Source of the DNA: a bacterium
GTDB lineage: Bacteria > ARS69
DNA: 16,770 nt
Direction: 5' to 3'
NCBI GenBank assembly: GCA_025774865.1
Contig: JALGZO010000750.1
Span: forward strand, 1 to 16,770
In this document: positions 1 through 16,770 of the stretch, piece after piece
Position numbering within the stretch: the stretch's first letter is position 1
How the letters are laid out: each line of letters opens with the position of its first letter
Notes under the pieces: generated by a model
What the model was told of the DNA's origin: nothing
The model's database searches: none
What the model saw: only the letters and a program-made list of their open reading frames with translations
Position numbers and translations under genes: made by a program

Positions 1-191
1 AGATCGATGCGGATCACACCGCCGATCGCCGCGATCCAGGCCTCCTGCCCTCGGACGGCCACGTCGACGATCTCTCCGGTCGCCGCGTACAACGTCCAGT
101 CGTCCGAGGCACATTGAGCCATCGCGGAGGCGGGGAGGAGACTCGCTAAGAGGCACAGAGGAAGGAGGGCCTTCCACAGCAGGCTGGTCAA
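1..191 (-). CDS. Secreted protein, N-terminal part only (cut by window edge), possible beta-propeller
   Basis: The first 63 residues of an exported protein are visible; the rest lies beyond base 1. The TTG start at 191-189 overlaps the TGA stop of the preceding gene (TTGA) and has a strong Shine-Dalgarno site, AAGAGGAG, six bases upstream, so the start is well supported. Residues 1-26 form a signal peptide: Lys7, a Leu-rich core and a signal peptidase I site at about Ala-Met-Ala|Gln. The mature part begins QCASDDWTLYAATGEIVDVA and continues to a VIRID strand, which resembles one blade of the propeller repeats in periplasmic sensor-type proteins (inference from one short repeat). It is the last visible gene of unit 2 and translationally coupled to the GT2/phosphotransferase fusion. 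Function unknown; it may be unrelated to glycan synthesis. Confidence 0.75.
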   Translation of the reverse strand, partial: MTSLLWKALLPLCLLASLLPASAMAQCASDDWTLYAATGEIVDVAVRGQEAWIAAIGGVIRID

Positions 192-2326: not shown

Positions 2327-3081
2327 ACCAGCCAAAATGCCTCGATGATGATCTTGCGGTTCATCTTCGACGTCCCCGAATGTCGGTCGACGAAGACGAT
2401 CGGGACTTCCCGGATTCGAAACCCGTTTCGCCACGAGTGAAAGTTCATTTCGATCTGAAACCCGTAGCCATCCGATCGCACCTGTTCGAGATCGATGGCT
2501 TCGAGCACTTCCCGGCGGAAGCACTTGAACCCGCCCGTCGAATCGCGTAGCGGCAGACCGGTCACGATCCGAGCGTACAGATTCGCTCCGTACGATAGGA
2601 TCAGCCGACGGATCGGCCAGTTGACGACGTTCGCGCCTCCTCCCAGGTACCGGGAACCCACCACGAGATCGACGTTGTCCTCATCGGCGACCCGAAGCAT
2701 CTCCCGGAGATACTTGGGGTCGTGCGAGAAGTCCGCGTCCATCTCGAAGATGAACTCCGCCTCCGTATTCGCCAGAGCCCACCGGAACCCCGCCACGTAG
2801 GCTGACCCCAGGCCCAGCTTCGCCTCCCGGTGCAGTGCGTGCACGCGGCCGGTGGAGGCCGCCAGCCGCTCGGCCGCGTCCCCGGTCCCGTCCGGCGAGT
2901 TGTCGTCGACGACGAGAACCTCGATCGACGGATCGAGCCCCAGCACCACCGGAACCAGGTTCGTCAGATTCTCCCGCTCGTTGTAGGTCGGGATGATGAC
3001 AAGGACTCTCACGCCGAAACCGTCGGGGAGGGGCGCGCCGAGATCGGCCCGGCGCTCGTCAGGAACCCCCTCGAGGGGCAT
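2263..3081 (-). CDS. DPM1-like GT2, polyprenol-monophosphate sugar (mannose-type) synthase
   Basis: Soluble GT-A enzyme of the dolichol-phosphate mannosyltransferase group, expected to transfer a hexose from a nucleotide sugar to polyprenyl phosphate on the cytoplasmic face. Counting from GTG 3012 (249 residues), it shows VLVIIPTYNERENL (3-16), VVDDNSPDGT (34-43), the metal-binding MDADFSHDP (91-99), GSRYLGGG (119-126), DSTGGFKCFRREVL and DRHSGTSKM. It ends after WKLRF with no membrane helices, as in the short soluble DPM1 class. The reading frame opens at ATG 3081, 12 bases after the previous stop, giving 272 residues. The first 23 of these look unconserved and neither start has a good ribosome site, so GTG 3012 may be the true start. 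Mannose is the usual family donor, but the actual sugar cannot be read from the sequence. Confidence 0.92.
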   Translation of the reverse strand: MPLEGVPDERRADLGAPLPDGFGVRVLVIIPTYNERENLTNLVPVVLGLDPSIEVLVVDDNSPDGTGDAAERLAASTGRVHALHREAKLGLGSAYVAGFRWALANTEAEFIFEMDADFSHDPKYLREMLRVADEDNVDLVVGSRYLGGGANVVNWPIRRLILSYGANLYARIVTGLPLRDSTGGFKCFRREVLEAIDLEQVRSDGYGFQIEMNFHSWRNGFRIREVPIVFVDRHSGTSKMNRKIIIEAFWLVWKLRFMSLLGKTVAKDGRPR

Positions 3082-3093
3082 CCGTCGAACATT

Positions 3094-4098
3094 CTAACAT
3101 CCCTGGCGGAGCGATCCGGCCCGCTCGGGCCCCGGGGGCGTCCCGGGCGCGTCCGTCTCGCCCCGATCCGCCGGCGATAGGCTCGTCTCTCCGGTCCTCT
3201 CCCGCAGCGTCTCGCGCAATGAGGCGATCTGTTCCGAAAGAAACCCGAGACCGAGAAACTGGGTTCCGAGGAGAACGAGCAGCATGACGAGAAAGAGGAG
3301 CGGGCGAGATCCGACACCGGTGAGAAGCTTCAGGAGGATGAGGAGGATTCCCAGAAGCGTCCCCACGCCGACCATCGCGACTCCCCACGACCCGAAGAGG
3401 AGCATCGGCTTGTCGCGAAAGGACGTCTCGAACTTCACGACGAGCAGGTCGAGGAGCCCTCGGAGAATCCTCCTCCTCCCGAACTTCGAACGACCGGAGT
3501 GCCTCGGATAGTAGTTCGTCCGGATCTCCTTCACCCGGAACCCCTTGCCGGCCGCGAGCACCACGACGTAGCGGTGCCAGTCCGACCGAAGGTGAATGAC
3601 CTCGATGACCTCCCGACGGAAGCCCTTGATCCAGTTCAGATCGTGAGCGTCGATCCCGAAGAGGCGCCGGCAGAGGAAGTTGTAAACGAGCGAGACGAAG
3701 AGTTTCCCCTCCCGGCGACCGATGCGCCAGCCCACGACGACGTCGTTGCCGCTTCGGAGCTCCGTCATCATCTTCGGGATGTCCTCGGCCGGATCCGACT
3801 GGAGATCAGCGGGCAGGAAGATCACCCAGTCGCCGCGAAGGTTGCGAAAGCCCGTGTTCAGCGCTTCCGACAGGCCGAAGTTGCGACGATGCCGAAACGC
3901 TCGCAAGTGGGCCAGCCGCTCGCGAGCGCTTTCGACCTCCGCCCAGGTCCCGTCGGTGCTCCCGTCGTCGACGAAGACGATCTCGCCCGGCAACCCGGCG
4001 GCATCGAGACCCTCGTCGATGCGCTCGAACAGTCGCTCGACGTTCCCCTCTTCGTTGAACGCGGGGATGATCACGGAAATGAGGGAGTCCCTCTTCAC
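3094..4098 (-). CDS. GtrB/DPM-like GT2 with two C-terminal membrane helices
   Basis: 334-residue polyisoprenyl-phosphate sugar synthase-like glycosyltransferase. Visible motifs are ISVIIPAFNEEGNVERL (7-23), VDDGSTDGTW (43-52), RNFGLSEALNTGF, the donor/metal site LPADLQSDP (95-103), NWIKGFRREVIEVI (155-168) and HSGRSKFGRRRI (200-211). Two hydrophobic helices (about 231-258 and 267-287) anchor the C-terminus, followed by an amphipathic and then polar, Pro/Glu-rich tail. This layout matches GtrB/ArnC-type enzymes, which charge polyprenyl phosphate with a sugar for later use outside the membrane. The GTG start at 4098 overlaps the TGA of the dehydrogenase gene and has GGGAG six bases upstream. 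The much longer open frame upstream of this start is only a shadow of the dehydrogenase gene. The donor sugar is unknown. Confidence 0.9.
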   Translation of the reverse strand: MKRDSLISVIIPAFNEEGNVERLFERIDEGLDAAGLPGEIVFVDDGSTDGTWAEVESARERLAHLRAFRHRRNFGLSEALNTGFRNLRGDWVIFLPADLQSDPAEDIPKMMTELRSGNDVVVGWRIGRREGKLFVSLVYNFLCRRLFGIDAHDLNWIKGFRREVIEVIHLRSDWHRYVVVLAAGKGFRVKEIRTNYYPRHSGRSKFGRRRILRGLLDLLVVKFETSFRDKPMLLFGSWGVAMVGVGTLLGILLILLKLLTGVGSRPLLFLVMLLVLLGTQFLGLGFLSEQIASLRETLRERTGETSLSPADRGETDAPGTPPGPERAGSLRQGC

Positions 4099-5165
4099 AG
4101 GCCGCTCCCATCCGCCGGCTCCACCTCGAAGGCTTCCCCGCCGGCCTCCAGCGACTTCTGCGCGGCCTCGAGGGCGGACACCACCGAGAGCCCTTGCTTT
4201 CCGTCGGTCCTCGGTGTCGCGCGCGTCACGACGCACTCGACGAAGTGAGCGCACTCCTCCGCGAGCGGCTCCGTGAACGTGATCTTCGGGATGTGGATGT
4301 CGCCGGAGTGCAGTTTCAACTGAAACTCGCCGTACTCCGCGTCGGGGGTCGTACGGCGTACACCCTTGTCGTAGATCTTGATCTTTCCTTCCGTCTCCAC
4401 GTCGTCGTAGACGACCATCTTCTTCGAGCCGACGAACGTGGCTCGCCGCACCTTGCTCGGATCCAGCCAGCTGGAGTGGATGTGCGCCACCGCCCCGGAC
4501 GGGTACTCGAACATCGCGAACGCCACGTCCTCGATGCCGGGCTGCAAGAACGAACGGCCCATCGCGCGGACGCGCATCGGTTCTTCCCCGAGCACGTGGT
4601 TCACGATGGAGACGTCGTGCGGCGCCACGTTCCAGAGCGCGTTGACGTCCTGGCGGATGCGGCCGAGGTTGACGCGGCTCGCGTACACGTACAGCACCTC
4701 GCCGATCTCCCCCGAGTCGTAGAGATCCTTGATGCAATGTACGGCCGCGTTGTAGATGAACGTGTGACCCGCCATCAGGACCCGCTCGTTCCGGCTCGCG
4801 CACTCCAGGAGCGCGCGGCACTCGGCCACGGTCACGGCGAGCGGTTTCTCGACGAGAACGTCCTTGCCGGCCTCCATCGCGAGGATCGCCAAGTCGTGAT
4901 GCGTGGCCGCGGGGGTCGCGATCACGAGCGCCCGAATCGACTCGTCGTCCAGCACGTCCTGTACGTCCGTGCACAGGGCGGTGCCGGGATAACGACGGCC
5001 CACCGTCTCGAGCCGCGCCTTGTCGGTGTCTACGATCGCTGCGAGCCGCGCGCCCGGCGCCTCCGCCATGTTCCGAATCATGTTCGGGCCCCAATAGCCC
5101 GCCCCGACCACGGCGACGCCGACGGTTTCCTTCTGTGTGTCCTCACGAGTCGAAGCGGTGCGCAT
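4095..5165 (-). CDS. Gfo/Idh/MocA family NAD(P)-dependent sugar dehydrogenase
   Basis: 356-residue oxidoreductase. The Rossmann motif GAGYWGPN (21-28) binds NAD(P); VLVEKPLA (103-110) carries the family's conserved lysine (K107); the catalytic region reads LWNVAPHDVSIV (177-188), with H183 and D184. The family oxidises sugars, and members with GYWGPN and APHD motifs in polysaccharide loci, such as WlbA/WbpB-type enzymes, act on UDP-N-acetylglucosaminuronate to give a 3-keto sugar. That substrate is an inference. The aminotransferase and acetyltransferase that complete that pathway are not in this window. ATG 5165 overlaps the previous stop by one base (TGATG). A TTG one codon upstream is also possible. 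The stop overlaps the next gene's GTG by four bases, so the gene sits in the middle of a coupled chain. Confidence 0.9.
   Translation of the reverse strand: MRTASTREDTQKETVGVAVVGAGYWGPNMIRNMAEAPGARLAAIVDTDKARLETVGRRYPGTALCTDVQDVLDDESIRALVIATPAATHHDLAILAMEAGKDVLVEKPLAVTVAECRALLECASRNERVLMAGHTFIYNAAVHCIKDLYDSGEIGEVLYVYASRVNLGRIRQDVNALWNVAPHDVSIVNHVLGEEPMRVRAMGRSFLQPGIEDVAFAMFEYPSGAVAHIHSSWLDPSKVRRATFVGSKKMVVYDDVETEGKIKIYDKGVRRTTPDAEYGEFQLKLHSGDIHIPKITFTEPLAEECAHFVECVVTRATPRTDGKQGLSVVSALEAAQKSLEAGGEAFEVEPADGSGL
4105..4109 (-). promoter_or_regulatory. Ribosome binding site for the GTG start at 4098
   Basis: GGGAG on the minus strand, six bases before GTG, inside the end of the dehydrogenase gene. 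It picks this start out of an open frame that extends about 1 kb further upstream. Confidence 0.6.
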
Positions 5166-5854
5166 CAATCACCGAACCTGTACTTGACGATGAAGTAGAG
5201 GGCCGCGACGCCATCACGCCAGGTGATCTTCTTCCCCTCTTCGTAGCCGCGCCCGTTGTAGGAAATCGGAACTTCGTAGACCTTGTAACCGCGCTTGAAC
5301 ACCTTCGCCGTGAACTCCGGCTCGAATCCGAAACGGTTCGCCTCGAGTCGCAGCGAACGGAAGATCTCCCCGCGGCACATCTTGAAGCACGTCTCCATGT
5401 CGGAAAGCATCGTGTTGTAGAGCACGTTCGTCACCCACGTGAGGAACCGGTTCCCGAGGTAGTGCCAGTAGAGGAAGACCCGGTGGGTGCCGAGGAAGCG
5501 GGTGCCGAAGGTGACGTCGGCGCGCCCGTCGAGAATCGGCGCCGCCAGCAGCTCGTACTCCTCCGGGTAGTACTCGAGATCCGCGTCCTGGATCACGACG
5601 AGGTCTCCGGTGCAGTGCGGCTGGGCCGTCCGTATTGCCGCGCCCTTGCCCCGGTTCACGGAATGATGGAAGACCCTCACGTCGCCGTCGCTCTCGAGAC
5701 GCTCCAGGATCTCTCGACTCCCGTCCGTCGACGCGTCGTCGACGATGAGCAGCTCCTTTTCCAGAGGGAACGGCGCGGCACGCACTCGGCGGACGATCTC
5801 CTCGATCGTCTTCTCCTCGTTGAAGACGGGGATGATGACGCTCAGCTTCTTCAC
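5165..5854 (-). CDS. DPM/DPG-synthase-like GT2 glycosyltransferase
   Basis: 229-residue GT-A enzyme of the DPM/DPG-synthase-like group, without membrane helices. Motifs: LSVIIPVFNEEKTIEEIV (4-21), IVDDASTDGS (37-46), NRGKGAAIRTA, the metal/donor site IQDADLEYYP (88-97), DMETCFKM (152-159), GFEPEFTAKV and the C-terminal YEEGKKITWRDG (204-215). The last motif marks a common bacterial subgroup that lies in many exopolysaccharide loci and probably charges polyprenyl phosphate. The GTG start at 5854 overlaps the TGA of the GT-C/TPR gene (GTGA) and follows GGGAG by eight bases. Tight coupling directly behind a GT-C enzyme suggests that it makes the lipid-linked donor for that enzyme (inference). 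The sugar is unknown. Confidence 0.92.
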   Translation of the reverse strand: MKKLSVIIPVFNEEKTIEEIVRRVRAAPFPLEKELLIVDDASTDGSREILERLESDGDVRVFHHSVNRGKGAAIRTAQPHCTGDLVVIQDADLEYYPEEYELLAAPILDGRADVTFGTRFLGTHRVFLYWHYLGNRFLTWVTNVLYNTMLSDMETCFKMCRGEIFRSLRLEANRFGFEPEFTAKVFKRGYKVYEVPISYNGRGYEEGKKITWRDGVAALYFIVKYRFGD

Positions 5855-7998
5855 CGGACGAGCTCCCGGACCGCCGCTTCGAGGTCCTTGTTCTTCGGGT
5901 CGAGCCGCAGGGCCTTCATCATCAGGGCCAGGGCCCGGGCCCGGTCCCCGTCCCTCAGTTCGAGGATGCCCAGGTTCTGGTAGTTGAGGGAGTCGAAGGG
6001 CCGTCGCTCAATCGCCTCTTCCAGGAGCGTTCGGGCCCGGCCGTAATCCTGTAGTTTAAACCAGCAAACCGATTCCAACGAGAGGAGTTCCGGCGTCACC
6101 TGCCCGCCCGCCTCCCGGTGACGCGTGAACCAATCGAGGGCGCTCTCCCAGTTCTCGCGGAGGGCCTCCTCCGATCCGCGCTCGAACAGCGTCGGCTCGT
6201 AGTCGTGGATGTGGCGGCCTCCGTACTCGCCTGGGACTCTCCGGACCTCAAGGGTACTCGAGAAGAGCGTCCGCACGGGCCAGATCTGAACGACGGACGA
6301 CTCGGTCAGCAGACCGGGGAAGCGCGCCTCGAGCCCGTCAGCGTCCCCCTGCCCGCAGACCGCGACATGGGTGATCCCGTGCTCCGCGAGCAGCCCCTCG
6401 CGTCCGGGTGGACCAAAGTATGGCAACACTCGGAGGCGAGTGTCCTGTCCGAGCAGCGGAGCCAACGGGCCGATCAGCGCGGCATCCTCTCCGATGAGCT
6501 CGGGCAACGTCGCCTTGACGTCCTCGAGAAACGTCGTCCGGTGCGTCGCCCACCAGCCCCACTGCCAGAGCGCGAACCCGGCCGAGGCGACGACCATCGC
6601 GGCTCCCGCGGCGCGAAGGCTGCTTCCCGCGATCGTCGGCGTCGACCGTCCCAACCGAGCCAGGATCTCCGGGTTCCACAGGATGACCACGTAGGCGGCG
6701 ATCCCCAGCACGCCCGCCCACGCGAGATTCTGGTTGAACGTGTCCACGTTCCGGAAGGCCGAGACGATCACGTCGAACGCATCCGAGGAAATGCGAGCCG
6801 GCGGCAGTGTCAGGTAGTCCAGTAGGAGCGAGGCGTAGTGCTTCGCCGCGTCGATCGCCCCGAAGAAGAACGAATACACCGCGACGATGATCGGCACGTG
6901 TTCGTCCCAGGCGCCGGGAGTCCGCAATCGGACGTCCTCGGCCCGGAGCAGACGACCGATGACGACGGCCGCCCCCGCCACCAACGCCGGCGCGAGGATC
7001 ACGTAGTACCTCGGTGCCTTGTACGGCAGCAGCGAATAGTACGCCCACATGCCGAGGAACCAGAACGCGTAGATGGCCGACCCGTTCTCGACGGCGCGAC
7101 GCCGGGCCCGACCGTTTCCCCCCACCCAGATCGCGAAGAAACCGCCGATCGCGCCGACCACCGGTATGCGGAAGAACATCCAGGACTTGCGCAACGCGTT
7201 GAAGACTTCGCTGACGCCCTCGCGCAGTGACACGAGGAACGGGAGCGGACCGTGCAGCCCCGTGGACTGCCGCTCGACGTGCCCGCGGATCTCCTCCGAG
7301 TGCGGCAGGAAGATCACGGCGAACCAGACCACGAAGACGACCCCGCCGCCGGCGAGGAGCGGCAGCACGCCCTTCGGACGCCGCTCGCGCAACGCGACGA
7401 ACAGGAGCAGACCCGGGAGGAACCCCAGCGCGTGGTACTTCCCGAAGAGCGTCGCTCCCACGGCGAGGGCGCCGGCGAGCGCCTGCGACCGGGTGGAACG
7501 ACTCATGACCGCGACGCATGCGAACGCGAGCATCATCGCGACGAGATTCTCGGCCACCGGCACGCGCGAATAGAACACCAACCATTGGTTGACCGCCCCG
7601 AGAGCCGCACCCAATAGCGCGACGCGCGGCCCGGCGCAGCGTAAGAGCCCCCACGCGAGCGCACCTACCGTCACGGTCCCGAGCAGGGCGGAGAGCACCA
7701 CGGTCGGAAGTCGTCCCGGACCGAACGGCAGGTAGAACAGGTACGTCAGCCCGTTCATCAGCGGATAGATCCACAGGTCCCGGTTGTAGTCGGTGATCCA
7801 TTGTCCGAAGAGTGCCGCGTTGCGCGCCGCGTGCACCATCGTCGGCGGGTCGGTGTAGATGCCGTTCGACCATGAGAAACGATCCGCGGGATCCGCGAGC
7901 GGCCACGCGATCCGAAGGACGAGTGCCAGGAGAACCAGCAGGGCGAACCATCGAAGGGTCGGGCCGTTGTCCGGGGCCACGCGATCGGGCGAACTCAA
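5851..7998 (-). CDS. GT-C (GT39/ArnT/PMT-like) membrane glycosyltransferase with C-terminal TPRs, paralogue A
   Basis: 715-residue polytopic protein. The N-terminal two thirds form about ten or more membrane helices in GT-C style, with a first extracytoplasmic loop SWSNGIYTDPPTMVHAARN (42-60). Asp50 there is the likely catalytic or metal residue. Further marks are YSRVPVAEN (143-151), TLFGKYHALGFLP (183-195) and the LLPYKAPRYY stretch ending near 332, which matches the PRYL motif of GT39 enzymes. A soluble domain follows (about 485-600: HRTTFLEDVK, APLLGQDT). Two TPR units at about 636-705 close the protein. GT-C enzymes use polyprenyl-phosphate sugars outside the membrane; acceptor and sugar are unknown here. 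It is paralogous to the genes at 8489-10552 and 10549-12654 but lies in a different transcription unit. The start is uncertain: TTG 7998, four bases after the DUF2304 stop, or GTG 7980. Confidence 0.85.
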   Translation of the reverse strand: MSSPDRVAPDNGPTLRWFALLVLLALVLRIAWPLADPADRFSWSNGIYTDPPTMVHAARNAALFGQWITDYNRDLWIYPLMNGLTYLFYLPFGPGRLPTVVLSALLGTVTVGALAWGLLRCAGPRVALLGAALGAVNQWLVFYSRVPVAENLVAMMLAFACVAVMSRSTRSQALAGALAVGATLFGKYHALGFLPGLLLFVALRERRPKGVLPLLAGGGVVFVVWFAVIFLPHSEEIRGHVERQSTGLHGPLPFLVSLREGVSEVFNALRKSWMFFRIPVVGAIGGFFAIWVGGNGRARRRAVENGSAIYAFWFLGMWAYYSLLPYKAPRYYVILAPALVAGAAVVIGRLLRAEDVRLRTPGAWDEHVPIIVAVYSFFFGAIDAAKHYASLLLDYLTLPPARISSDAFDVIVSAFRNVDTFNQNLAWAGVLGIAAYVVILWNPEILARLGRSTPTIAGSSLRAAGAAMVVASAGFALWQWGWWATHRTTFLEDVKATLPELIGEDAALIGPLAPLLGQDTRLRVLPYFGPPGREGLLAEHGITHVAVCGQGDADGLEARFPGLLTESSVVQIWPVRTLFSSTLEVRRVPGEYGGRHIHDYEPTLFERGSEEALRENWESALDWFTRHREAGGQVTPELLSLESVCWFKLQDYGRARTLLEEAIERRPFDSLNYQNLGILELRDGDRARALALMMKALRLDPKNKDLEAAVRELVR
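5863..5867 (-). promoter_or_regulatory. Ribosome binding site for the GTG start at 5854
   Basis: GGGAG on the minus strand, eight bases before a GTG that overlaps the previous stop codon by four bases. Confidence 0.5.
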
Positions 7999-8002
7999 CG
8001 CG

Positions 8003-8362
8003 TCACCCGTCCTCCGTCGTCCGGTCGTCGGAGCGGAGCTGCTCCCGCAGCAGGGAGATCTCCTGCGCGAGCTTCTTGGTTCGTTCCGACAGGTCCGAGA
8101 GAACGAGCGAGAAGTGGAGCAGGATGATCAGGAAGAATCCGAATCCCACGAGAAAGAGCGCCGAAGGCGGGTAGTGAATCCCCACGAGGAGCGCCAGGCG
8201 ATCGAGAAGCCCGCGCCAACACGACAGGAGGAGCAGGATCACCGCGGTGAAGATCCACAGGAGCGAGTACTGCTCCATCAGCTTCCGGGCTCGGACGAGC
8301 TCGAGGACGCCACCGAGGAGCAGAGCACTCCCCAGAATGGACACCCACTGGACACGATCCAT
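8003..8362 (-). CDS. DUF2304 small membrane protein
   Basis: 119 residues with three hydrophobic segments (about 5-22, 34-50, 66-88) and a charged, coiled-coil-like C-terminus (SERTKKLAQEISLLREQL). Features typical of DUF2304 are the RARKLMEQYSLLWIFTAVIL region, the GIHYPPSALFLVGFGF segment and the tail after LSDLSERTKKLA. The family has no proven biochemical role but is usually found beside DPM-like GT2 genes and may act as a partner or membrane anchor for them (from memory of the family). ATG 8362 is chosen because GAGGG lies five bases upstream and the family starts close to this Met; the frame stays open about 100 bases further but that part overlaps the promoter and terminator zone. It is the first gene of unit 2. 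Confidence 0.88.
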   Translation of the reverse strand: MDRVQWVSILGSALLLGGVLELVRARKLMEQYSLLWIFTAVILLLLSCWRGLLDRLALLVGIHYPPSALFLVGFGFFLIILLHFSLVLSDLSERTKKLAQEISLLREQLRSDDRTTEDG

Positions 8363-8367
8363 CGACG

Positions 8368-8372
8368 CCCTC
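8368..8372 (-). promoter_or_regulatory. Ribosome binding site for DUF2304 gene
   Basis: GAGGG on the minus strand, five bases before ATG 8362. It favours this start over upstream in-frame codons. A small imperfect hairpin (8377-8397, GGGGCGC pairing with GCGTCCCC around one bulge) lies just upstream in the leader; whether it matters is unknown. Confidence 0.55.
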
Positions 8373-8431
8373 GGAAGGGGACGCGCGAAAGCGCCCCGTG
8401 AAGAGAATCCGCCAACCGGGTGAAGGAGGGT

Positions 8432-8461
8432 AACATACGGCCCCTTTGGGGGGATCCTCAA
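8432..8461 (-). promoter_or_regulatory. Candidate sigma-70-type promoter of unit 2
   Basis: On the minus strand TTGAGG (8461-8456) and TATGTT (8437-8432) are separated by 18 bases. Each matches the sigma-70 consensus at four of six positions. The -35 element overlaps the T-tract of the preceding terminator. Transcription would begin near 8425, leaving a leader of about 60 bases. The match is moderate, and chance occurrence cannot be excluded; the argument is mainly positional, because a terminator just upstream requires a promoter in this 98-base interval for unit 2. Confidence 0.35.
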
Positions 8462-8485
8462 AACCGAGCCCCGCGGGCGGCTCGG
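8460..8485 (-). terminator. Intrinsic terminator ending unit 1
   Basis: Three bases after the TGA of the GT-C/TPR gene (8491-8489) the minus strand forms a perfect seven-base-pair stem, CCGAGCC (8485-8479) with GGCTCGG (8470-8464), an eight-base GC-rich loop and then TTTT (8463-8460). The T-tract is short, but position, stem strength and context are typical of a Rho-independent terminator. Confidence 0.75.
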
Positions 8486-8488
8486 CCC

Positions 8489-10552
8489 TCAGCGGGCCGT
8501 CTCGTCGAGGCCGAGGGCGTGCAGCAGGTCCGGATCATCGGGGTCGAGCGCGAGCCCTCGCCGCCACAGCGCGACCGCGCCGGCGCGGTCCCCCTCCCGC
8601 TCCAGGAGCCGGCCGAGGTTGTGGTGGTCCGTCGGGATCGTCGGGCGAAGCGCCATCGCGCGTTGTAACCCCTGCCTCGCGCGCGTCATCTCGCCCGCGC
8701 GGAACCACGCCCGGGCCTCGATCTGCAGGAGGTCGTGGCTTTCCGAGGCGACCGTCGCGCGGTGCTGAGCGACGAGCTCGAGGGCCTCGTGTGGGCGGTC
8801 GCGTGCGAGGTGCTCGACGGCCTGCTCGAGGAACGTCGGCTGGTAGTCGTCATTCGAAACGCGAACGACGCCCACGAAGCGGAGGAAGTGCGAGCGCAGC
8901 GGCCATCGACGGACGAGCACCATGTCGTCCCGAAGATCGGCCGCGAACACCGTGGACGACCCCGGGTCGCCGAGGTCCGCCACGTGCGTCACTTCGGGGG
9001 GAAGCCGGTTCACGACATCGCCGAACTGCGGGATTCCGATCCGATCGGAGTCTTGAACGAGAGCGGGCGCCATCGCGCCGAAGAGCACAGCGTCCTCCCC
9101 CACGACCGCGTCGAGGGACGCCTTCGCGTCCTCCAGCGCGTAGGTCCGGTGTCCGGCCCACCAGAGGAACTGGACCCCGTTGATGACGAGCGCGAGCCCG
9201 AGAAGACGTGCCGCGAGGCGCGCCGCAGCCGGCTGACCGAGCCGGAGAGGAAAGGCGCGCGCGGCGATCACGGCGAGCCCCACCCCGAGCGAACCTCCGA
9301 CGACGAGGACTGCGGGGAACGGATTCAGGCTCCACGCGATCTCCCCCAGGAACGTACGGACCGCCTGCACCGCAGACGACGCCGACGCGACGGTCAGATC
9401 CCGAAGAACCCACAGGCCGTGAGAGCACGTCACGACCGTCGCGAGTCCGGCCCCGAGAAGACCGGTGGCCCACGCGACGATCTCGGCGGCGCCGCGCGGG
9501 CGGCGGCGCGGAAGTCCTCGGGCCTTCGCGAATTCGTCGAGCAGGCAGGCCGCCCCCGCGACGAGCGCCACGGCGGCCGGCAGGTAGTAGCGGGGGGCCT
9601 GGTACGGGAGGAGCGAGTGATAGATCCACGCGGACGCGAACCAGAACGCGAAGATCGCGCCCCCCTTCTCCAGGCGATCGCGTCGCAGCTCCGCGTGCGC
9701 CAACGTCCCGAGCACGAAAGCCACGCCAAGCGATCCGAGCACCGGCATCCGAACGAAGAGCCACGACCGCTGGATGGCTCGCAGGAATTCAGCGACCCCC
9801 TCGAGCGGCGAGCGTAGGAACGGCACCTCCCCGTACAGCGGTGCCGCCCGCACCTGCTCGAGGAGCTCGGCCCGGAACGGGCGAAAGATCAGGAAGGCCC
9901 ACGCGGCGACCGCGACGCCGAGGCCGAGACCGGGAGCGGCGAGCACGCGCACGCGCCGGTCCCGGGCCAGGAGAAAGACGACGAGGGCCGGTAGGAAGGA
10001 GATCGCATGCAACTTCCCGAAGAGCACGGCCACCCCGGCCACCAGACCGGCCGCGAACCGCGATCGCTCACTCCGGCCGAGGGCGAGGGCCGCCGCTACC
10101 ACCAGCAACAGCGCGACGGCGTTCTCGACGACCGGCACGCGTCCGAACATGACGAGCCAGTAGCAGGTGGCAACGAGCGCGGCCGCGACGACAGAGCCCC
10201 GGCGCCCGATCGCGCGGGACGTCGCCCATGCGATGGCCGCCACGGTGGCGGCCCCGAGGAGCGCGGCCAAGAGCTGCGTGGTCAGACGGCTCGGGCCGAG
10301 CCCCTGGTAGGCGAGCCACGTGATCCAGTTGAAGAGCGGGTAGAAGACCAGGTCACGGCTCTCGTCGCGAGCCCATTCTCCGAAGAGGATCGCGTTGCGC
10401 GCCGAATGCGCGACCGTGGCTGGATCGGTGTAGACACCACTCGACCAGGAGATTCGTCGCGCCGGATCCGCGAGCGGCCAAACCGCCCGGAGCGCGAAGG
10501 CCAGGAGGACGAGCGCCGGCACCCTCCACCGACGAGGGATCTCGAGCCTCAT
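8489..10552 (-). CDS. GT-C (GT39/ArnT/PMT-like) membrane glycosyltransferase with C-terminal TPRs, paralogue B
   Basis: 687 residues with the same layout as the other two copies. The first extracytoplasmic loop is SWSSGVYTDPATVAHSARN (35-53) with candidate catalytic Asp43; FGRVPVVEN (136-144), VLFGKLHAISFLP (176-188) and LLPYQAPRYYL follow. The middle soluble domain carries HRTYALEDAKASL, APALVQDS and PQFG. Two TPR-like units occupy roughly 606-673, the second reading DHHNLGRLLEREGDRAGAVA. It is closer to paralogue C than to A (both share FGEW.RDESRD after the loop). ATG 10552 overlaps the stop of paralogue C (ATGA), so the two are translationally coupled and may work as a pair. It is the last gene of unit 1. 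Sugar donor and acceptor are unknown; a polyprenyl-phosphate sugar donor is inferred from the fold. Confidence 0.87.
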   Translation of the reverse strand: MRLEIPRRWRVPALVLLAFALRAVWPLADPARRISWSSGVYTDPATVAHSARNAILFGEWARDESRDLVFYPLFNWITWLAYQGLGPSRLTTQLLAALLGAATVAAIAWATSRAIGRRGSVVAAALVATCYWLVMFGRVPVVENAVALLLVVAAALALGRSERSRFAAGLVAGVAVLFGKLHAISFLPALVVFLLARDRRVRVLAAPGLGLGVAVAAWAFLIFRPFRAELLEQVRAAPLYGEVPFLRSPLEGVAEFLRAIQRSWLFVRMPVLGSLGVAFVLGTLAHAELRRDRLEKGGAIFAFWFASAWIYHSLLPYQAPRYYLPAAVALVAGAACLLDEFAKARGLPRRRPRGAAEIVAWATGLLGAGLATVVTCSHGLWVLRDLTVASASSAVQAVRTFLGEIAWSLNPFPAVLVVGGSLGVGLAVIAARAFPLRLGQPAAARLAARLLGLALVINGVQFLWWAGHRTYALEDAKASLDAVVGEDAVLFGAMAPALVQDSDRIGIPQFGDVVNRLPPEVTHVADLGDPGSSTVFAADLRDDMVLVRRWPLRSHFLRFVGVVRVSNDDYQPTFLEQAVEHLARDRPHEALELVAQHRATVASESHDLLQIEARAWFRAGEMTRARQGLQRAMALRPTIPTDHHNLGRLLEREGDRAGAVALWRRGLALDPDDPDLLHALGLDETAR

Positions 10553-12654
10553 CGAGTTTCCGCCCGCAGCGCCACCGCGACCTGCCCCGCCGCCCTGAAG
10601 AGCTCGGGATCGTAGGGATCGAGCGCCAGACCTCGAAGCCAGAGATGGAGCGCGCCCCGCCGATCTCCGTCGGCCAGGAGCAGGAGCCCCAGATTGTGGT
10701 AGTCAGTCGGATTGTTCGGCCGGAGCTCGATGGCCCGTTCCAGACTCTCCTTCGCCAGATCCGCACGTCCCATCTTGTGGTGGCTCCGGGCGGCGACCGA
10801 GTACGAGTCCGGAATCTCGGGAGCGGAGTCGCGAAACTCGCGGAACTGTTCGAGCGACTCCGCCCACCGCCCTCCCTCGATCGCGTCGACCGCTCGCTCG
10901 AACGCCGTCCGGCGATAGTCAGGGGTGGGGATACGGAACACCCGGAGGATCCGAACCAGGCGCGTGCGAAACGGCCAGCCATGGACCGTCTCGAGCCTCG
11001 CGCTGACTTCCGCGTCGACACCCCGAAACATCTTCGGATCACCGTATTCGGTCACGAGAAGGTGAGTCACACCGTACCGGTCGACATCCGCCGGCGATAC
11101 GACACCGAACTGCGGCAGTGCGACGCGTTGGGTGTCCTGCACGAGCAGCGGCGCGAACGCTCCCAGGACGACCGCCTCCTCCGCGAGGATGGCGTCCAGG
11201 GATTCCTTCGCGTCCTCGACGACATACGTGCGATGGAACATCCAGTCGAGAAGCTGACCCCCGTTCAAGACCAAGGCCGCACCGAGCGCGACCTTGGCGA
11301 CGCGCGCGCGGTCCCATCGCTCGATGCGACGCCGCAGGCGCTTCCCCGCGGGGTGGAACAGCACCCTCGAGGCGAGCGCCGTGACTACGAGCACCGCCAC
11401 CCCCACCCCCGCGAGCGTGGGTAGCCGGTCGATCGCATGCGCCATGCTCCGAAGCCACTCGCGCAACGCCGTCGTGGTCGGCGACGAGAACGGCACGATG
11501 CGTTCACTCCAGACCGCGAGCCCGTGCGCGACGGTCGCGCCGGCAGCGTACCCCGCGGTGAAGAGCCCCAATGTCCACCAGGTCTGCTCGGCGCGTCCGC
11601 GCGGGGGCCGCAACTTGACGCGCCCGCCCGTTCCCAGCTCGTGCACCTGGCCGGCGGCACACACCAGAAGCGGGACCACCGCGAGCAGATAGTAGCGAGG
11701 GGCCTGGTAAGGAATCACCGAGTAGTAGACGGCGAACGCCGCGAACCAGAACGCGAAGAGCGCAGTTCCGTTCTCCAGGCGCGCGCGCCGGACCTTTCGT
11801 CCGCCGAACGTCGCCAGGGTGAAGGTGAAACCCAGTAACGACAGTACGGGCAAGCGGTGAAAGAGCCAGGAGTTGCGGATCGCTTCCAGAAACTCGCGCA
11901 CTCCGCTCCCGACGGACTCGAAGAACGGAATCGCTCCGTACGACTCGGACGACCCCCGGATCTGGTCCAGAATGGCCGCTCGGTGCGGGAGAAACACGAG
12001 AACCGACCAGAGGACGGACGCGGCGCCGACGCCGGCGAGCGTCAAACCGAGCGCGCTCACCTTCCGATCGCGGAGCCAGAGAAACAACAACAGGGCGGGC
12101 AGGAACGCGATCGCGTGCAGCTTGCCGAACAGGAACGCGACTCCGACGAGCACCCCGGTCCCGAGCCGGGCGGGGGCGCGTCGGGACACCGCGAGCGCCG
12201 ACGCGATCGTCAGCAAAAGGACCGTCACGTTCTCCACGACGGGCACCCGCGAGAACATCACGAGCCAGAAGCAGAATCCGGTCAGGGTGGCCGCGAGAAG
12301 CCCTCCCCGGGGACCGACACATCGGTGCACCGCCCACGCCGCCGCTCCTACCGTCAGCGTTCCGAGCACTCCCGCCAGAAGCTGAGTCGCCAGCCGGCTC
12401 ACCCCGAAGATCTCGAACACGATCCACGTGAGAACGTTGTGGAGGGGGTAGAACATGAAGTCGCGACTCTCGTCCCGGATCCATTCGCCGAAGAGCGCCG
12501 CGTTGCGCGCCGCGTGCGTCACGGTCGCGGGGTCGGTGTAGATCCCGTTCGACCAGGAGAGGCGTGCACCCGGGTCGGCCAACGGCCACACGAAACGAAG
12601 AACCGCCGCGAGCGTGAGCACCCCGGCGAGCCGCCACCACTCGCGCCGACCCAT
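10549..12654 (-). CDS. GT-C (GT39/ArnT/PMT-like) membrane glycosyltransferase with C-terminal TPRs, paralogue C
   Basis: 701 residues. Motifs match the other copies: SWSNGIYTDPATVTHAARN (33-51) with candidate catalytic Asp41, FSRVPVVEN (134-142), FLFGKLHAIAFLPAL and IPYQAPRYYLLA. The soluble domain has HRTYVVEDAKESLDAIL, APLLVQDT and LPQFG, and the C-terminus two TPR units, the second being DYHNLGLLLLADGDRRGALH. ATG 12654 overlaps the upstream stop by one base (TGATG); a GTG one codon earlier is equally possible. The frame stays open upstream to 12804, but that part overlaps the GT2 gene and lacks the hydrophobic N-terminal pattern of the paralogues. It follows a DPM/DPG-like GT2 directly, as paralogue A is followed by one, suggesting donor-synthase/GT-C pairing (inference). 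Confidence 0.87.
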   Translation of the reverse strand: MGRREWWRLAGVLTLAAVLRFVWPLADPGARLSWSNGIYTDPATVTHAARNAALFGEWIRDESRDFMFYPLHNVLTWIVFEIFGVSRLATQLLAGVLGTLTVGAAAWAVHRCVGPRGGLLAATLTGFCFWLVMFSRVPVVENVTVLLLTIASALAVSRRAPARLGTGVLVGVAFLFGKLHAIAFLPALLLFLWLRDRKVSALGLTLAGVGAASVLWSVLVFLPHRAAILDQIRGSSESYGAIPFFESVGSGVREFLEAIRNSWLFHRLPVLSLLGFTFTLATFGGRKVRRARLENGTALFAFWFAAFAVYYSVIPYQAPRYYLLAVVPLLVCAAGQVHELGTGGRVKLRPPRGRAEQTWWTLGLFTAGYAAGATVAHGLAVWSERIVPFSSPTTTALREWLRSMAHAIDRLPTLAGVGVAVLVVTALASRVLFHPAGKRLRRRIERWDRARVAKVALGAALVLNGGQLLDWMFHRTYVVEDAKESLDAILAEEAVVLGAFAPLLVQDTQRVALPQFGVVSPADVDRYGVTHLLVTEYGDPKMFRGVDAEVSARLETVHGWPFRTRLVRILRVFRIPTPDYRRTAFERAVDAIEGGRWAESLEQFREFRDSAPEIPDSYSVAARSHHKMGRADLAKESLERAIELRPNNPTDYHNLGLLLLADGDRRGALHLWLRGLALDPYDPELFRAAGQVAVALRAETR

Positions 12655-13379
12655 CACGAAGCCGCGTCCGATTCTTTGCCGCGCGCCGGGGGCACGCTCC
12701 GGCAGAGCCCGATGAGGACCGCCAGAATCACCTTGATCATGTAGTAGGCGGACCGCGTCCACGTGATCGAGGAACGGCCGATCTCGCGATCCCGAAAGCG
12801 ACACCGCGTCTCGACGATCCGAAAGCCCGCGCGACTCAGCAGCACGAGGGCCTCCACCTCCGGGTAATCCCCAGGGTAGTGCTCGGCCAGGAATCCGATG
12901 ACGCGCGGGCCCGACGCGCGAAATCCCGACGTCGTGTCGCGCAGCCTCTGTCCCGTGACCCGAGACACGAGCCCCGAGAAGATGAGCATGCCGAGCCGCC
13001 GCAGGGGCGGGGCCTGGTAGGCCGTCTTCTCCACGTAGCGGGAGCCGAGCACCAGATCGGCTTCGCCCCGCTCGATCGGTTCGAGGAGGCGCCCGATCTC
13101 GTCGGGGCGGTGCTGGCCGTCTCCGTCGACCTGGACCACGACATCGTAGCTTTGTTCCTTCGCGAAGCAGAACCCGGCCTGTACCGCCGCGCCGATTCCC
13201 AGATTGTACGGAAGCTCGAGAACGCGCGCGCCTGCCGCGCGGGCCACATCGGCCGTGTCGTCGACGGACCCGTCGTCCACGACGACGACGTCCAGATCGC
13301 CGCGGGCACGGAGCTGCCGCACGACGTCCCCCACGGCGCCGCCCTCGTTGTACGCGGGTACGACGGCAAGAACTCTCAC
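12654..13379 (-). CDS. DPM/DPG-synthase-like GT2 glycosyltransferase
   Basis: 241-residue GT-A enzyme: VLAVVPAYNEGGAVGDVV (3-20), VVVDDGSVDDT (32-42), NLGIGAAVQAGF, the metal/donor site QVDGDGQHRPDE (83-94), GSRYVEK, DTTSGFR (148-154) and YPEVEALVLL. The C-terminal RSSITWTRSAYYMIKVILAVLIG carries one hydrophobic membrane-associated segment. This C-terminal signature is the one usually encoded next to DUF2304 genes (from memory of the family), yet the only DUF2304 gene here is 4.3 kb downstream in the other unit. Likely role: charging polyprenyl phosphate with a sugar. GTG 13379 overlaps the previous stop (GTGA) and has GGGGAG seven bases upstream, which rules out the longer open frame up to 14006. 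The stop overlaps the start of GT-C paralogue C. Confidence 0.91.
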   Translation of the reverse strand: MRVLAVVPAYNEGGAVGDVVRQLRARGDLDVVVVDDGSVDDTADVARAAGARVLELPYNLGIGAAVQAGFCFAKEQSYDVVVQVDGDGQHRPDEIGRLLEPIERGEADLVLGSRYVEKTAYQAPPLRRLGMLIFSGLVSRVTGQRLRDTTSGFRASGPRVIGFLAEHYPGDYPEVEALVLLSRAGFRIVETRCRFRDREIGRSSITWTRSAYYMIKVILAVLIGLCRSVPPARGKESDAAS

Positions 13380-14368
13380 GACCGCGCTCCCCGCGGGCGC
13401 CTGCCGAGGACTAGACTGGCGACCCCCCTGGTCATGCCCCATCCGCGCGCGTACGCGCGGAGCGTCGCCACGAATGCGAGCGAGAGCACGCGAATCGAGC
13501 GCGCGTGGAGGGCGACCCTGGCCGCGAGCACCGTGCTCAACAGGAACACGAGCGAGAACGTGACGAGTGCGATCGGGCCCGCGAGCCGAACGAAGACCGC
13601 ACTCAGCGCGACAACTCCCGAGAGCGCCGCGAGCGGCGGAGCGACCAGGTCGAGCGGTCCGGCGTACCCGTCGCCGCGCACGCGCCGCGGGTGCGTTCCG
13701 TAGAGAACCACGCGCCAGAAGCCGTGCCGCGATTGTTCGCGACCGTACCGGGCGAGGGACGTCGGGTGGTAGTGATCCACCAGGGCCTCCGGCACGAAAC
13801 GAATCCGGTGGCCGGCGTCCCGTAGGCGGTAGCAGAGATCGCTGTCCTCGCCCGAGGCCTCCGAGTAGAACGCGTCGAAACCGCCGACGGACTCGAGCGC
13901 CTCGCGACGCACCCCGAAGTTGAACGAGCCCACGTACTCGACCTCCCGGCCGAGACGCGAGTGTCGCCAGACGATCTCGGCGTGAACGATTTCGGCGAGG
14001 CGGCAACCCGGATTCGCGATGCCATAACTACCGCCCGCCACGGGCGTCCCCGTGTCAATGGCGCCGGCCAGAAGCCGCACCCAGTCCGGGTGAGGCACGC
14101 AGTCGGAATCGGTGAACAGGATCACGGGGGCGCGCGCCTCCCGCCAGCCTCGGTTGCGCGCAGCCGCCGGGCCCGAGTTCGCCTGACGGATCACTCGTGC
14201 TCCCATCCGCTCCGCCACCGCTGCGGTGTCGTCGGTGGAGCCGTCGTCCACCACGACGATCTCCAGGGACGGCGCCCCCTCCTGTGCACGACAGGCGGCG
14301 AGCGACGCCGGAAGCGTGCTCGTGGCGTCGCGAGCCGGGATGACGATGGACACGGCGGGCTCGGTCAA
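13376..14368 (-). CDS. GT2 glycosyltransferase with C-terminal membrane helices
   Basis: 330-residue inverting GT-A transferase. Motifs from the TTG start: VSIVIPARDATSTLPASLAA (6-25), VVVDDGSTDDTAAV (38-51), NSGPAAARNRGWREA, FTDSDCVPHPDW (85-96) containing the DxD site, the acceptor motif SGEDSDLCYRL (172-182), which holds the likely catalytic base, and QSRHGF (212-217), a weak echo of the QxxRW motif of processive GT2 enzymes. Two or three membrane helices lie at about 243-305, so the catalytic domain faces the cytoplasm at the membrane. It probably adds a sugar to a membrane-bound glycan intermediate; donor and acceptor cannot be read. TTG 14368 overlaps the upstream TGA (TTGA) and follows GGGAGAGGGAA by five bases. 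The upstream open extension to 14440 is not needed. Confidence 0.88.
   Translation of the reverse strand: MTEPAVSIVIPARDATSTLPASLAACRAQEGAPSLEIVVVDDGSTDDTAAVAERMGARVIRQANSGPAAARNRGWREARAPVILFTDSDCVPHPDWVRLLAGAIDTGTPVAGGSYGIANPGCRLAEIVHAEIVWRHSRLGREVEYVGSFNFGVRREALESVGGFDAFYSEASGEDSDLCYRLRDAGHRIRFVPEALVDHYHPTSLARYGREQSRHGFWRVVLYGTHPRRVRGDGYAGPLDLVAPPLAALSGVVALSAVFVRLAGPIALVTFSLVFLLSTVLAARVALHARSIRVLSLAFVATLRAYARGWGMTRGVASLVLGRRPRGARS
13387..13392 (-). promoter_or_regulatory. Ribosome binding site for the GTG start at 13379
   Basis: GGGGAG on the minus strand, seven bases before GTG. It fixes the start at the typical GT2 N-terminus instead of the long upstream extension of the open frame. Confidence 0.6.
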
Positions 14369-15486
14369 CCGACTTCCCTCTCCCAGATCTCGGCGATCTC
14401 GCGAACCGCGGCGTCGGAGCTCGCATGCTCTCGGAGCCACTCGACTCCCGCGGCGGGATCGGAGCCGGACGGGGCGCCGAGCTCCGCACTCACGGCCGCG
14501 ACGAAGTCCCCGGGACCGCCGTCCACCAGCCGAATGAACGGTCGAAGCCGTTCCGCGTCGGACGTCGCGGAGGCGACGACCCTCACGCCGGCCGCCAACG
14601 CTTCCCGGATCTTGATCGACGCGCGGTACCGGTTGACTTCCCGGTCCTCGAGAAAGTTCAGCGCGACGTCGGCGAGAGCATAGTAGGACGCCACCTCGTC
14701 GTGCGGAACGCCTCCGACGAAGACGACGAAGCCCGGCGGAAGACGGCTCGCGGCGATGTCCTCGAGGCGTCGGCGGTCGCGGCCGTCTCCCACGACCAGG
14801 AGACGGGCGTTCGGGTACTGGGCCGATACGGGCGCGAGGGCCCCCAGGAGCGCTCCGAGGTCGGAAGCCGGGCCCAAGTGTCCGGCGTACAGAAGCACGG
14901 GACCGGACCCGAGACCGAGCCGGGCACGAAGCTCGGGAGACGCCGTGGGGGCCGCGAAACGATCGGCGTCGACCGACTGCTCCACGAACACCGGCTCGCG
15001 CCCCGCTCCCCGCATCGGTCCCACGAGTCGACCCATGTTCTCGTTGTGCACAGTAACGTCATCGGCGGTCTTCGCCGCCGTGCGAAAGAAGCGTTCGACG
15101 ATGGCCCGCGCGGGCCCGGGCCGGTAATACGCACCATCGAGATCGTCGAGGTCGACCGCGACCCGCGCTCCCCGCGACCGGGCGATCCGGGCCGGCGCCC
15201 AGACGTTGGGAAGCGCCTTCAGCGTCCAGACGACCCGCGGCCGGATCCGCAGGACGGCCGCGGCGCCGTGCGCGAGCCAAAGACCCGCCTGCCACTCCGG
15301 CCGAACGGGGAGGCGCGGACACGGAACACGGTGGACGCCGGGCGGCGTTTCGGGATCGGAGCCGGGCGGGGCGGGCTCGACGAGCGAGACCTCATGGCCG
15401 CGGCGCGCGAGGGCACCGGCGAGCCCGCGGAAGCGGATCGCGCTCCCGGACTGGTGCTCTACGGACGACAGAAGGAGGATTCTCAT
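14365..15486 (-). CDS. GT4-type (GT-B fold) glycosyltransferase
   Basis: 373-residue retaining glycosyltransferase. The N-terminal half (1-185) starts MRILLLSSVEHQSGSAIRFR and includes VDLDDLDGAYY (111-121) and EQSVDADRF. The C-terminal donor half includes LLYAGHLGPASD (198-209), LLVVGDGRDRRRLE (229-242), FVGGVPHDEVASYYALADV (256-274) and the nucleotide-sugar clamp SIKIREALAAGVRVVAS (290-306), with K292 and E295 in the E-x7-E region. GT4 enzymes transfer sugars from nucleotide donors onto growing glycans in the cytoplasm; the specific linkage is unknown. There is no signal peptide or membrane helix. ATG 15486 overlaps the sulfatase-family stop by one base (TGATG). The frame is open to 15591, but that extension only overlaps the upstream gene. 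Confidence 0.9.
   Translation of the reverse strand: MRILLLSSVEHQSGSAIRFRGLAGALARRGHEVSLVEPAPPGSDPETPPGVHRVPCPRLPVRPEWQAGLWLAHGAAAVLRIRPRVVWTLKALPNVWAPARIARSRGARVAVDLDDLDGAYYRPGPARAIVERFFRTAAKTADDVTVHNENMGRLVGPMRGAGREPVFVEQSVDADRFAAPTASPELRARLGLGSGPVLLYAGHLGPASDLGALLGALAPVSAQYPNARLLVVGDGRDRRRLEDIAASRLPPGFVVFVGGVPHDEVASYYALADVALNFLEDREVNRYRASIKIREALAAGVRVVASATSDAERLRPFIRLVDGGPGDFVAAVSAELGAPSGSDPAAGVEWLREHASSDAAVREIAEIWEREVG
14374..14384 (-). promoter_or_regulatory. Ribosome binding site deciding the TTG start at 14368
   Basis: The purine-rich run GGGAGAGGGAA on the minus strand ends five bases before TTG. It supports a TTG start that overlaps the previous stop codon by four bases. Confidence 0.6.
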
Positions 15487-16770
15487 CAGTGCGCGTACCC
15501 GAGCGCTCGAAGCCGGCGAACCGCCTCGGGATCGGGTTCCGAGTGTCGCGGCGGCTCCCCTCTCGGCAGCGCCGCGCTCAGCCCCTCCCATTCCGGTCCG
15601 GTCGGCTCGACCGGTTGCCTCTCACCGGGGTCCTGCGTCAGGTCGAAGCCGATCCGCGATCCGGTCTCCCGATTCACGAGGAGCTTGCCGGTACCGCCGT
15701 CTTCCGTGAGCACGATCGCCGTCTGGTCCTCCTTCCCTTCCGGCGCGAAAGTCTCGGCGACGATCGGTTCTACCGGCGGATCGAGCTCCCCCCGGTAGCC
15801 CCCGAACGCGAATGCCCGCAAGGTCTCCGCGACGGACGTCACGGGAACGTCGAACTCGGTGCCCACCCAGTTCACGAGCGACACCTGCGGATGGACGAAG
15901 ACGTAGGGCACGCGCAGGTCTTCTTCGTAGAGCTGCGACCCGTGCGTGAGCTCACCGTGCTGTTCCAATCCCTCGCCATGATCCGCCGTCAAGAGGACCA
16001 GACCCTCGCCGTTCGTCTCATTGCGAAAGGCACGGAGGAGATCCTCCAACCAGCGGTCCGTCTCCCGGATCTCCGCGTCGTACGACGAGACCGGCCACCC
16101 CGTCACCGGCTTCCCGCCCGCGGCCGTCCATCCGACGGACTCGCGGGCGAACCGTCGCTCCAGAACTTCGGGAGCGTCGTACGGCGTGTGCGGGTCGAAC
16201 AGGTGAACCCACAGAAACCGCGGAGGCGAGGACTCGGCCAGCCACCGTATCGCAGCCGCGCAGGTCTTCTCGGCCCTTCGCTCGATCAGATCGAAGGGAA
16301 GGATGCGATTCGCGACTCGCACGGTGGCCAGTGCGGTCATCATGGGATGAACGCTTTCGAGCCGTGAAAACGTGTCGTCGTACGTCTGGAATCCGGGAGC
16401 GAGGCCGGACAGGCTCGCCTTGAGCGGAATGCCGCTGACGAACGCGGCGCAGCTCCAGCCGGCCTCGGAGATCTCGCGGACGATCGTGGGAATGTGTTCC
16501 GGGAGCGCCGTGCCGTTGTTCAGCACGCCGTGCTCCCGGGGAGTCCGACCGGTCATCATCGACACATGGCTCGGGTTCGTGAGCGGGATCGGCGCGTACG
16601 CGCGGGCATGCGCGCAGCTGGTCCGGGCGAGACGATCGATCGCCGGGGTCGTGCCACGCGGGTAACCGTAGCACGAGAGGTGATCGGCGCGCGTCGTGTC
16701 CAGCGTGACGAGCAGGATGTCCCGGGCGTCGTGCGCCGCCGCGCCGGCCCTGGCGGCCGGCCCGGGTGGG
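15486..16770 (-). CDS. Sulfatase / alkaline-phosphatase-superfamily hydrolase, N-terminus cut by window edge
   Basis: The reading frame is open to the right edge, so about 427 C-terminal residues are visible and the start, with any signal sequence, is missing. Numbering from the edge, the metal-binding start is DILLVTLDTTRADHLSCYGY (17-36). The active-site segment reads PLTNPSHVSMMTG (62-74). Then come HLFDPHTPYDAP (189-200), TADHGEGLEQHGELTHGS (261-278) and LYEEDLRVPYVF (280-291), all typical of PF00884. Formylglycine sulfatases have Cys or Ser at the start of C-x-P-S-R; here it is Thr64 and the Arg is His, so classical sulfatase activity is unlikely. A Thr nucleophile is known in phosphoethanolamine and phosphoglycerol transferases of this superfamily, so a phospho-transfer or phosphatase role is possible. 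A shorter start at GTG 16565 would lose the metal site. It is the first visible gene of unit 1. Confidence 0.88.
   Translation of the reverse strand, partial: PPGPAARAGAAAHDARDILLVTLDTTRADHLSCYGYPRGTTPAIDRLARTSCAHARAYAPIPLTNPSHVSMMTGRTPREHGVLNNGTALPEHIPTIVREISEAGWSCAAFVSGIPLKASLSGLAPGFQTYDDTFSRLESVHPMMTALATVRVANRILPFDLIERRAEKTCAAAIRWLAESSPPRFLWVHLFDPHTPYDAPEVLERRFARESVGWTAAGGKPVTGWPVSSYDAEIRETDRWLEDLLRAFRNETNGEGLVLLTADHGEGLEQHGELTHGSQLYEEDLRVPYVFVHPQVSLVNWVGTEFDVPVTSVAETLRAFAFGGYRGELDPPVEPIVAETFAPEGKEDQTAIVLTEDGGTGKLLVNRETGSRIGFDLTQDPGERQPVEPTGPEWEGLSAALPRGEPPRHSEPDPEAVRRLRALGYAH

Follow-up and report, generated by a model that had tools for sequence, protein, structure and literature searches.

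Three paralogous genes lie on the minus strand of the window, the whole 16,770-nucleotide stretch of DNA that was analysed, and each encodes a GT-C glycosyltransferase core followed by an alpha/beta domain of periplasmic type and a C-terminal TPR domain. We consider it fairly likely that the three proteins are inner-membrane glycosyltransferases that would use a polyprenyl-phosphate-sugar donor, act in the periplasm and hold their acceptor with the help of the TPR domain. Both halves of such a protein, and the bacterial GT-C+TPR architecture, are already known, and it is their pairing inside a conserved sugar-decoration gene set that is little described. What is new here is a distinct GT-C+TPR subfamily, found in multiple lineages and tied to a GacI/GacJ-like donor module. 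We computed the fold, the TPR assignment, the conserved residues, the gene order and the copy history.

Three paralogous genes and their copy history

The three genes and the parts of their products considered here are the following.

5851–7998, minus strand: GT-C-TPR copy 1 (P0001), 715 aa, conserved one-per-genome ortholog adjoining the DUF2304 gene
8489–10552, minus strand: GT-C-TPR copy 2 (P0002), 687 aa
10549–12654, minus strand: GT-C-TPR copy 3 (P0003), 701 aa, with a 4-base overlap with copy 2
7765–7893, minus strand: first external loop of copy 1 (residues 36–78), containing D36 and D50, from the alignment of homologues
5854–6189, minus strand: TPR domain of copy 1 (residues 604–715), a degenerate helix pair, two TPRs and a cap helix, from Pfam and the AlphaFold model
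8492–8836, minus strand: TPR domain of copy 2, from Pfam and motifs
10552–10908, minus strand: TPR domain of copy 3, from Pfam and the model

Copy 1 begins with a TTG codon, as does its L024 ortholog, and the 701 residues of copy 3 are counted from an internal ATG, the ORF list extending this frame to 12804 with a GTG. The initial annotation had described three related genes in one locus, which the comparison bears out: the genes are real, intact and 39–50% identical. Pairwise identities over about 670 residues are 42.6, 39.0 and 49.7%, with copy 1 at 39–43% to the other two, and copies 2 and 3 are recovered in a search with copy 1 at E values of 1.6e-129 and 4.6e-124, far beyond chance. Every motif quoted in that annotation was found in the sequences, namely SWS(N/S)G(I/V)YTDP, RVPV(A/V)EN, LFGK(Y/L)HA..FLP and APRYY. 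Two more paralogs are present on other contigs of the same genome, a metagenome assembly of 785 contigs.

Of 386 genomes surveyed, 35 were matched by a TPR-less profile, among them the five that represent the host's phylum. TPR tails of about 120 residues, confirmed by Pfam for those tested, are present in other families as well (G102, G240 and G368, which belong to one family, and G138, G275, G161 and G300). The bacterial GT-C+TPR family proposed at the outset thus stands, since homologues in several families carry the same tail behind a shared hinge, and the homologous tails rule out an invention specific to the phylum.

In the tree, copy 1 groups with the single DUF2304-adjoining copies of G001, G002 and G003 (support 100/100), copies 2 and 3 are sisters (99/98), and this pair clusters less firmly with the extra copies found in G001 and G002. 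Genome G003, whose completeness is rated at 100%, shares the gene order and carries copy 1 alone. Together, the tree and the single copy of G003 rule out a recent triplication as one event and indicate an old duplication within the family, after which a single slot expanded in tandem. The enzyme ancestral to this slot is copy 1, and copies 2 and 3 are a pair inserted later.

GT-C core and C-terminal TPR domain

The PMT_2 domain of Pfam (PF13231, cut-off 26.1 bits) was matched by copies 2 and 3 with 35.4 and 31.4 bits, and by copy 1 below the cut-off, with 18.8 bits (E 0.002). AlphaFold models were obtained for copies 1 and 3 from six-sequence alignments, with mean pLDDT values of 77.6 and 72.9, the external loops being their least certain regions (pLDDT <50). 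Comparison with Foldseek and VIA-align grouped the models with ArnT, PMT, STT3/AglB/PglB and ALG12. The model of copy 1 aligned with ArnT (5f15) at Z 21.8 over 428 residues (model residues 10–610, soluble domain included; E 9e-7 for the ArnT match in Foldseek), with Pmt4 at Z 22.1 and with STT3 at Z 23, and the model of copy 3 matched the same GT-C folds at Z 22–24. The GT-C fold claimed by the initial annotation is therefore supported by matches to ArnT, PMT and STT3 at Z 21–24. Predicted structures lacking this fold, or C-terminal helices other than TPRs, had been named there as grounds for giving the claim up; both the GT-C and the TPR fold were found.

An hhalign comparison with E. coli ArnT gave no significant alignment (a single ArnT sequence and a shallow profile were used); the relation to ArnT is based on the fold and the shared PF13231. 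A profile of the TPR-less core gave no GT-C match among PDB sequences. In up to 30 homologues, both with and without TPRs, R29, D36, D50, R145 and R330 do not vary and E150 and K187 hardly do; D36 is present in all 28 and D50 in all 29 homologues that cover the position.

All three proteins match TPR_2 above the Pfam cut-off (31.8–40.0 bits against 27), and residues 634–715 of copy 1 superpose on the designed TPR 1na3 with Z 15.0 and an rmsd of 1.4 Å over 82 residues. The two TPR units noticed earlier are good repeats, preceded by a degenerate helix pair and followed by a capping helix. Because the soluble domain lies inside the stretch aligned with ArnT and no hydrophobic helix follows it, the TPR tail should be periplasmic.

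A hinge motif, approximately Y-x-P-T-x-[FY]-E, directly precedes the TPR in 18 of 22 tailed members and is missing from all 10 TPR-less ones. The TPR nature of the tail is doubtful in two of the 22, G316 and G181. Since the tails were already known when the pattern was drawn up, it describes them and is no test. The distribution suggests that the tail arose once, or that it was lost once in the members without TPR; the root of the tree is arbitrary. The G316 and G181 homologues (L062:439-2286 and L065:640-2253) keep the hinge, and the tail of the one tested has no Pfam TPR match.

Gene cassette and putative donor module

The genes that surround the three copies are as follows.

188–2407, minus strand: GT2 fused to a degenerate polyprenyl glycosylphosphotransferase
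2263–3081, minus strand: DPM-like GT2
3094–4143, minus strand: ArnC/GtrB-like GT2 with C-terminal hydrophobic helices (ArnC 8vxh, E 1.8e-34; synteny)
4095–5168, minus strand: Gfo/Idh/MocA oxidoreductase, UDP-GlcNAc 3-dehydrogenase-like (below cut-off)
5165–5854, minus strand: DPM/AglJ-like GT2, with a 4-base overlap with copy 1
8003–8362, minus strand: DUF2304 small membrane protein of the GacJ/WpsB family (PF10066, E 1.5e-27), inferred start M34 of the ORF 8003–8461
12654–13400, minus strand: DPM/PpgS-like GT2 of about 240 aa, start approximate, the expected partner of DUF2304 (best NCBIfam match PpgS, E 5e-33, below its cut-off; DPMS 5mlz, E 1.4e-12)
13376–14440, minus strand: GT2 with hydrophobic C-terminal helices, conserved in the cassette
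14365–15591, minus strand: GT4 glycosyltransferase, conserved in the cassette
15486–16769, minus strand: first gene of the cassette, sulfatase family (PF00884), with conserved counterparts in G002 and G003

In the order of transcription, the cassette runs from the sulfatase-like gene through GT4, GT2 and the DPM/PpgS-like GT2 to copies 3 and 2, DUF2304 and copy 1, and continues with the AglJ-like GT2, the Gfo/Idh/MocA oxidoreductase, the ArnC-like GT2, the DPM-like GT2 and the GT2 fused to a phosphoglycosyltransferase-like part. Many of these genes abut or share a few bases. Several GT2 neighbours resembling polyprenyl-phosphate-sugar synthases are present, as first reported; the most informative neighbour, DUF2304, was absent from that account. 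DUF2304 and the GT2 at 12654–13400 are separated here only by copies 2 and 3 and are adjacent in relatives without the extra copies.

The order GT2, DUF2304, GT-C-TPR, together with the ArnC-like GT2, is kept in G001–G003, and the same block was found in four genomes of three other families (L076, L077, L079 and L080). Outside the phylum, the ArnC-like GT2 adjoins the GT-C gene in 7 of 8 TPR loci. An ArnC-like gene is present at loci L081 and L082, where no DUF2304 was detected, and neither gene was found at L086. A Wzx-type flippase is encoded 4–5 kb downstream in G001, G002 and G003; the contig of the window ends before that point. A search of five genomes found no GtrA flippase.

Some other features of the region are worth recording. 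Near the GT-C paralogs on G000:C681 and G368:C3 there are sulfatase-like genes as well. In the fusion protein of 188–2407, the Pfam domain Bac_transf covers only positions 95–175, the catalytic half being degenerate, and the usual acidic motif of DELPQ type is replaced in all four orthologs compared; the protein may have lost its phosphoglycosyltransferase activity and been retained as a scaffold. The oxidoreductase of 4095–5168, conserved between donor GT2 genes, is closest to an archaeal UDP-GlcNAc 3-dehydrogenase (below cut-off), which may point to a donor carrying a 3-keto or 3-amino sugar. Near the flippase of the cluster, a polytopic protein (L100:9387-10847, minus strand) carries SDDFLN and DFYRP in its first loop, resembling the DD and YRP motifs reported for TMTC; no Pfam match and no TPR were found in it.

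DUF2304 proteins of the GacJ/WpsB family activate a GT2 that makes GlcNAc-P-C55, in systems whose GT-C is GacL (PMC8035078, PMC10821137, PMC8327497). WpsB raises the activity of the GT2 WpsA, the synthase of GlcNAc-P-C55, and GacJ has the same effect on GacI (PMC10821137, PMC8327497); for S. pyogenes, the Wzx flippase is proposed to be GacK, and the GT-C is GacL (PMC8035078). In mycobacteria, PpgS too has a small membrane protein as its partner and supplies the GT-C Rv3779 (PMC3485146). GacI-GacJ-GacK-GacL and WpsA-WpsB of streptococci and lactococci and PpgS-Rv3632-Rv3779 of mycobacteria thus share with the window a soluble DPM-like GT2, a small membrane activator and a GT-C. In Gac/Wps the activator is a DUF2304 protein, as here, and a Wzx-type flippase takes part, such a gene being seen in G001–G003. 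As in GacIJKL, the DPM-like GT2, the DUF2304 protein and the GT-C gene were found in the same cluster; the likeness to GacL is one of cluster make-up. Unlike these systems, the GT-C here has a C-terminal TPR domain and several copies, and its long cassette, found in GC-rich MAGs, includes an additional ArnC-like synthase.

In the scheme we propose, the enzymatic roles, the topology and the donor route are drawn from homology. The DPM/PpgS-like GT2 (12654–13400), bound and activated by the DUF2304 protein (8003–8362), would make a cytosolic polyprenyl-P-sugar, with the ArnC-like GT2 (3094–4143) as an alternative or additional synthase. Several candidate donor synthases are present in the cassette, and the predicted pairing of the GT-C with DUF2304 and its GT2 therefore rests on gene order. 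The lipid-linked sugar would cross the membrane through the Wzx-type flippase, which may instead serve the main polymer rather than a monosaccharide carrier. The GT-C would then transfer the sugar, with D36 and D50 of the first external loop at the active site and the periplasmic TPR domain helping to hold or position the acceptor. Copies 2 and 3 would probably serve other sugar positions or other acceptors. A match of each copy to a different donor synthase, as suggested earlier, is not supported: G003 keeps all four DPM/ArnC-like GT2 genes with a single GT-C, so that copy number is not explained by the number of donors. By analogy, the window may be described as a multi-component transmembrane glycosylation module in which the GT-C carries TPRs.

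Possible acceptors and relation to known GT-C proteins

The architecture recalls TMTC1-4 and TMEM260, in which a GT-C is combined with TPRs proposed to recruit substrate domains (PMC11292533), and a 2021 paper had already pointed out full-length prokaryotic homologues of TMTC that combine GT-C and TPRs (PMC7801869). The three proteins resemble TMTC1-4 (CAZy GT105) in having lumenal-side TPRs C-terminal to a GT-C core, and paired acidic residues in the first external loop. TMTC1-4 have about 10 TPRs and a DUF1736 loop, whereas copies 1–3 have 2–3 TPRs (two clear ones, a degenerate pair and a cap, instead of the long array). PF08409 (TMTC_DUF1736) is absent from their Pfam matches up to E 1; it was also found in none of five genomes, the control genomes likewise giving no match. 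A specific relation to TMTC is therefore not borne out, the nearest solved folds being ArnT, PMT, STT3 and ALG12. TMEM260 and the bacterial DUF2723 proteins (GT117, PF11028) share the GT-C core and C-terminal TPRs and occur in the same genomes; copies 1–3 lack PF11028, and the TMEM260-like genes sit elsewhere. Membership in either the TMTC or the TMEM260 family was thus rejected for want of a Pfam match (PF08409, PF11028) in copies 1–3. TMEM260-like (PF11028) GT-C proteins were found in all five phylum genomes, and the two checked (L103:2768-5503 and L104:2205-4949) have C-terminal TPRs of their own. ArnT and PMT/PMT_2 (GT83, GT39) have in common with copies 1–3 PF13231 and a GT-C fold of about 430 residues including the C-terminal periplasmic domain; ArnT, unlike them, has no TPR. 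A text search of the literature for DUF2723 with TPR or GT39 with TPR found no paper.

The acceptor is slightly more likely to be a lipid-linked or surface glycan than a protein, given the flippase and the cytoplasmic glycosyltransferases of the cluster; the TPR and the TMTC/TMEM260 precedent would speak for a protein. If the proteins were O-glycosyltransferases in the manner of TMTC/TMEM260, the TPR would recruit folded surface or periplasmic proteins and the GT-C would add a single sugar to Ser/Thr. Peptides or proteins are the usual TPR ligands, the lumenal TPRs of TMTC1-4/TMEM260 are proposed to recruit cadherin or plexin domains (PMC11292533), the strong fold matches include PMT and STT3, both protein-glycosylating, and TMEM260-like proteins accompany the family in the phylum, with TPRs in the two checked. 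We nevertheless hold this reading to be somewhat unlikely, because copies 1–3 have no TMTC_DUF1736 or TMEM260-like Pfam match and lie in a glycan-synthesis cluster (cytoplasmic glycosyltransferases, flippase, DUF2304 module) whose studied relatives decorate cell-wall glycans. Rather doubtful, too, is the broader idea of a bacterial GT-C subfamily marked by the hinge, in which the TPR would be an acceptor-selection module and a GacI/GacJ-type donor module would feed TMTC-like periplasmic glycosylation by tandem copies differing in acceptor.

TPRs serve as scaffolds in many complexes of the envelope, and the tail could be an assembly module that docks the GT-C to envelope machinery, such as a polymerase or an export complex, and takes no part in acceptor choice. 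The TPR is about as conserved among orthologs as the catalytic core (50–55% against 51–57%), which fits a constant partner; equal conservation fits an acceptor-binding surface just as well, and we judge this unlikely. Decay of copies 2 and 3 into non-catalytic duplicates, leaving copy 1 alone at work, finds a parallel in relatives, where extra copies are broken or split (a frame change with a stop splits G002_c, and an assembly gap interrupts G001_b). This is very improbable here, as both reading frames are intact and keep all family-invariant residues.

Overall, the preferred reading remains that of GT-C enzymes whose periplasmic TPR domain would assist in holding the acceptor. If the acceptors are ordinary polysaccharides, the system would be one more variant of side-chain glycosylation. 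How TPRs steer a GT-C is a question posed by human TMTC and TMEM260, for which the bacterial family would offer simpler systems, with several lineages, 2–3 TPRs, TPR-less relatives and a conserved donor module. The DUF2304/GacJ-type donor modules of streptococci, lactococci and mycobacteria are also tied to uncultured bacteria.
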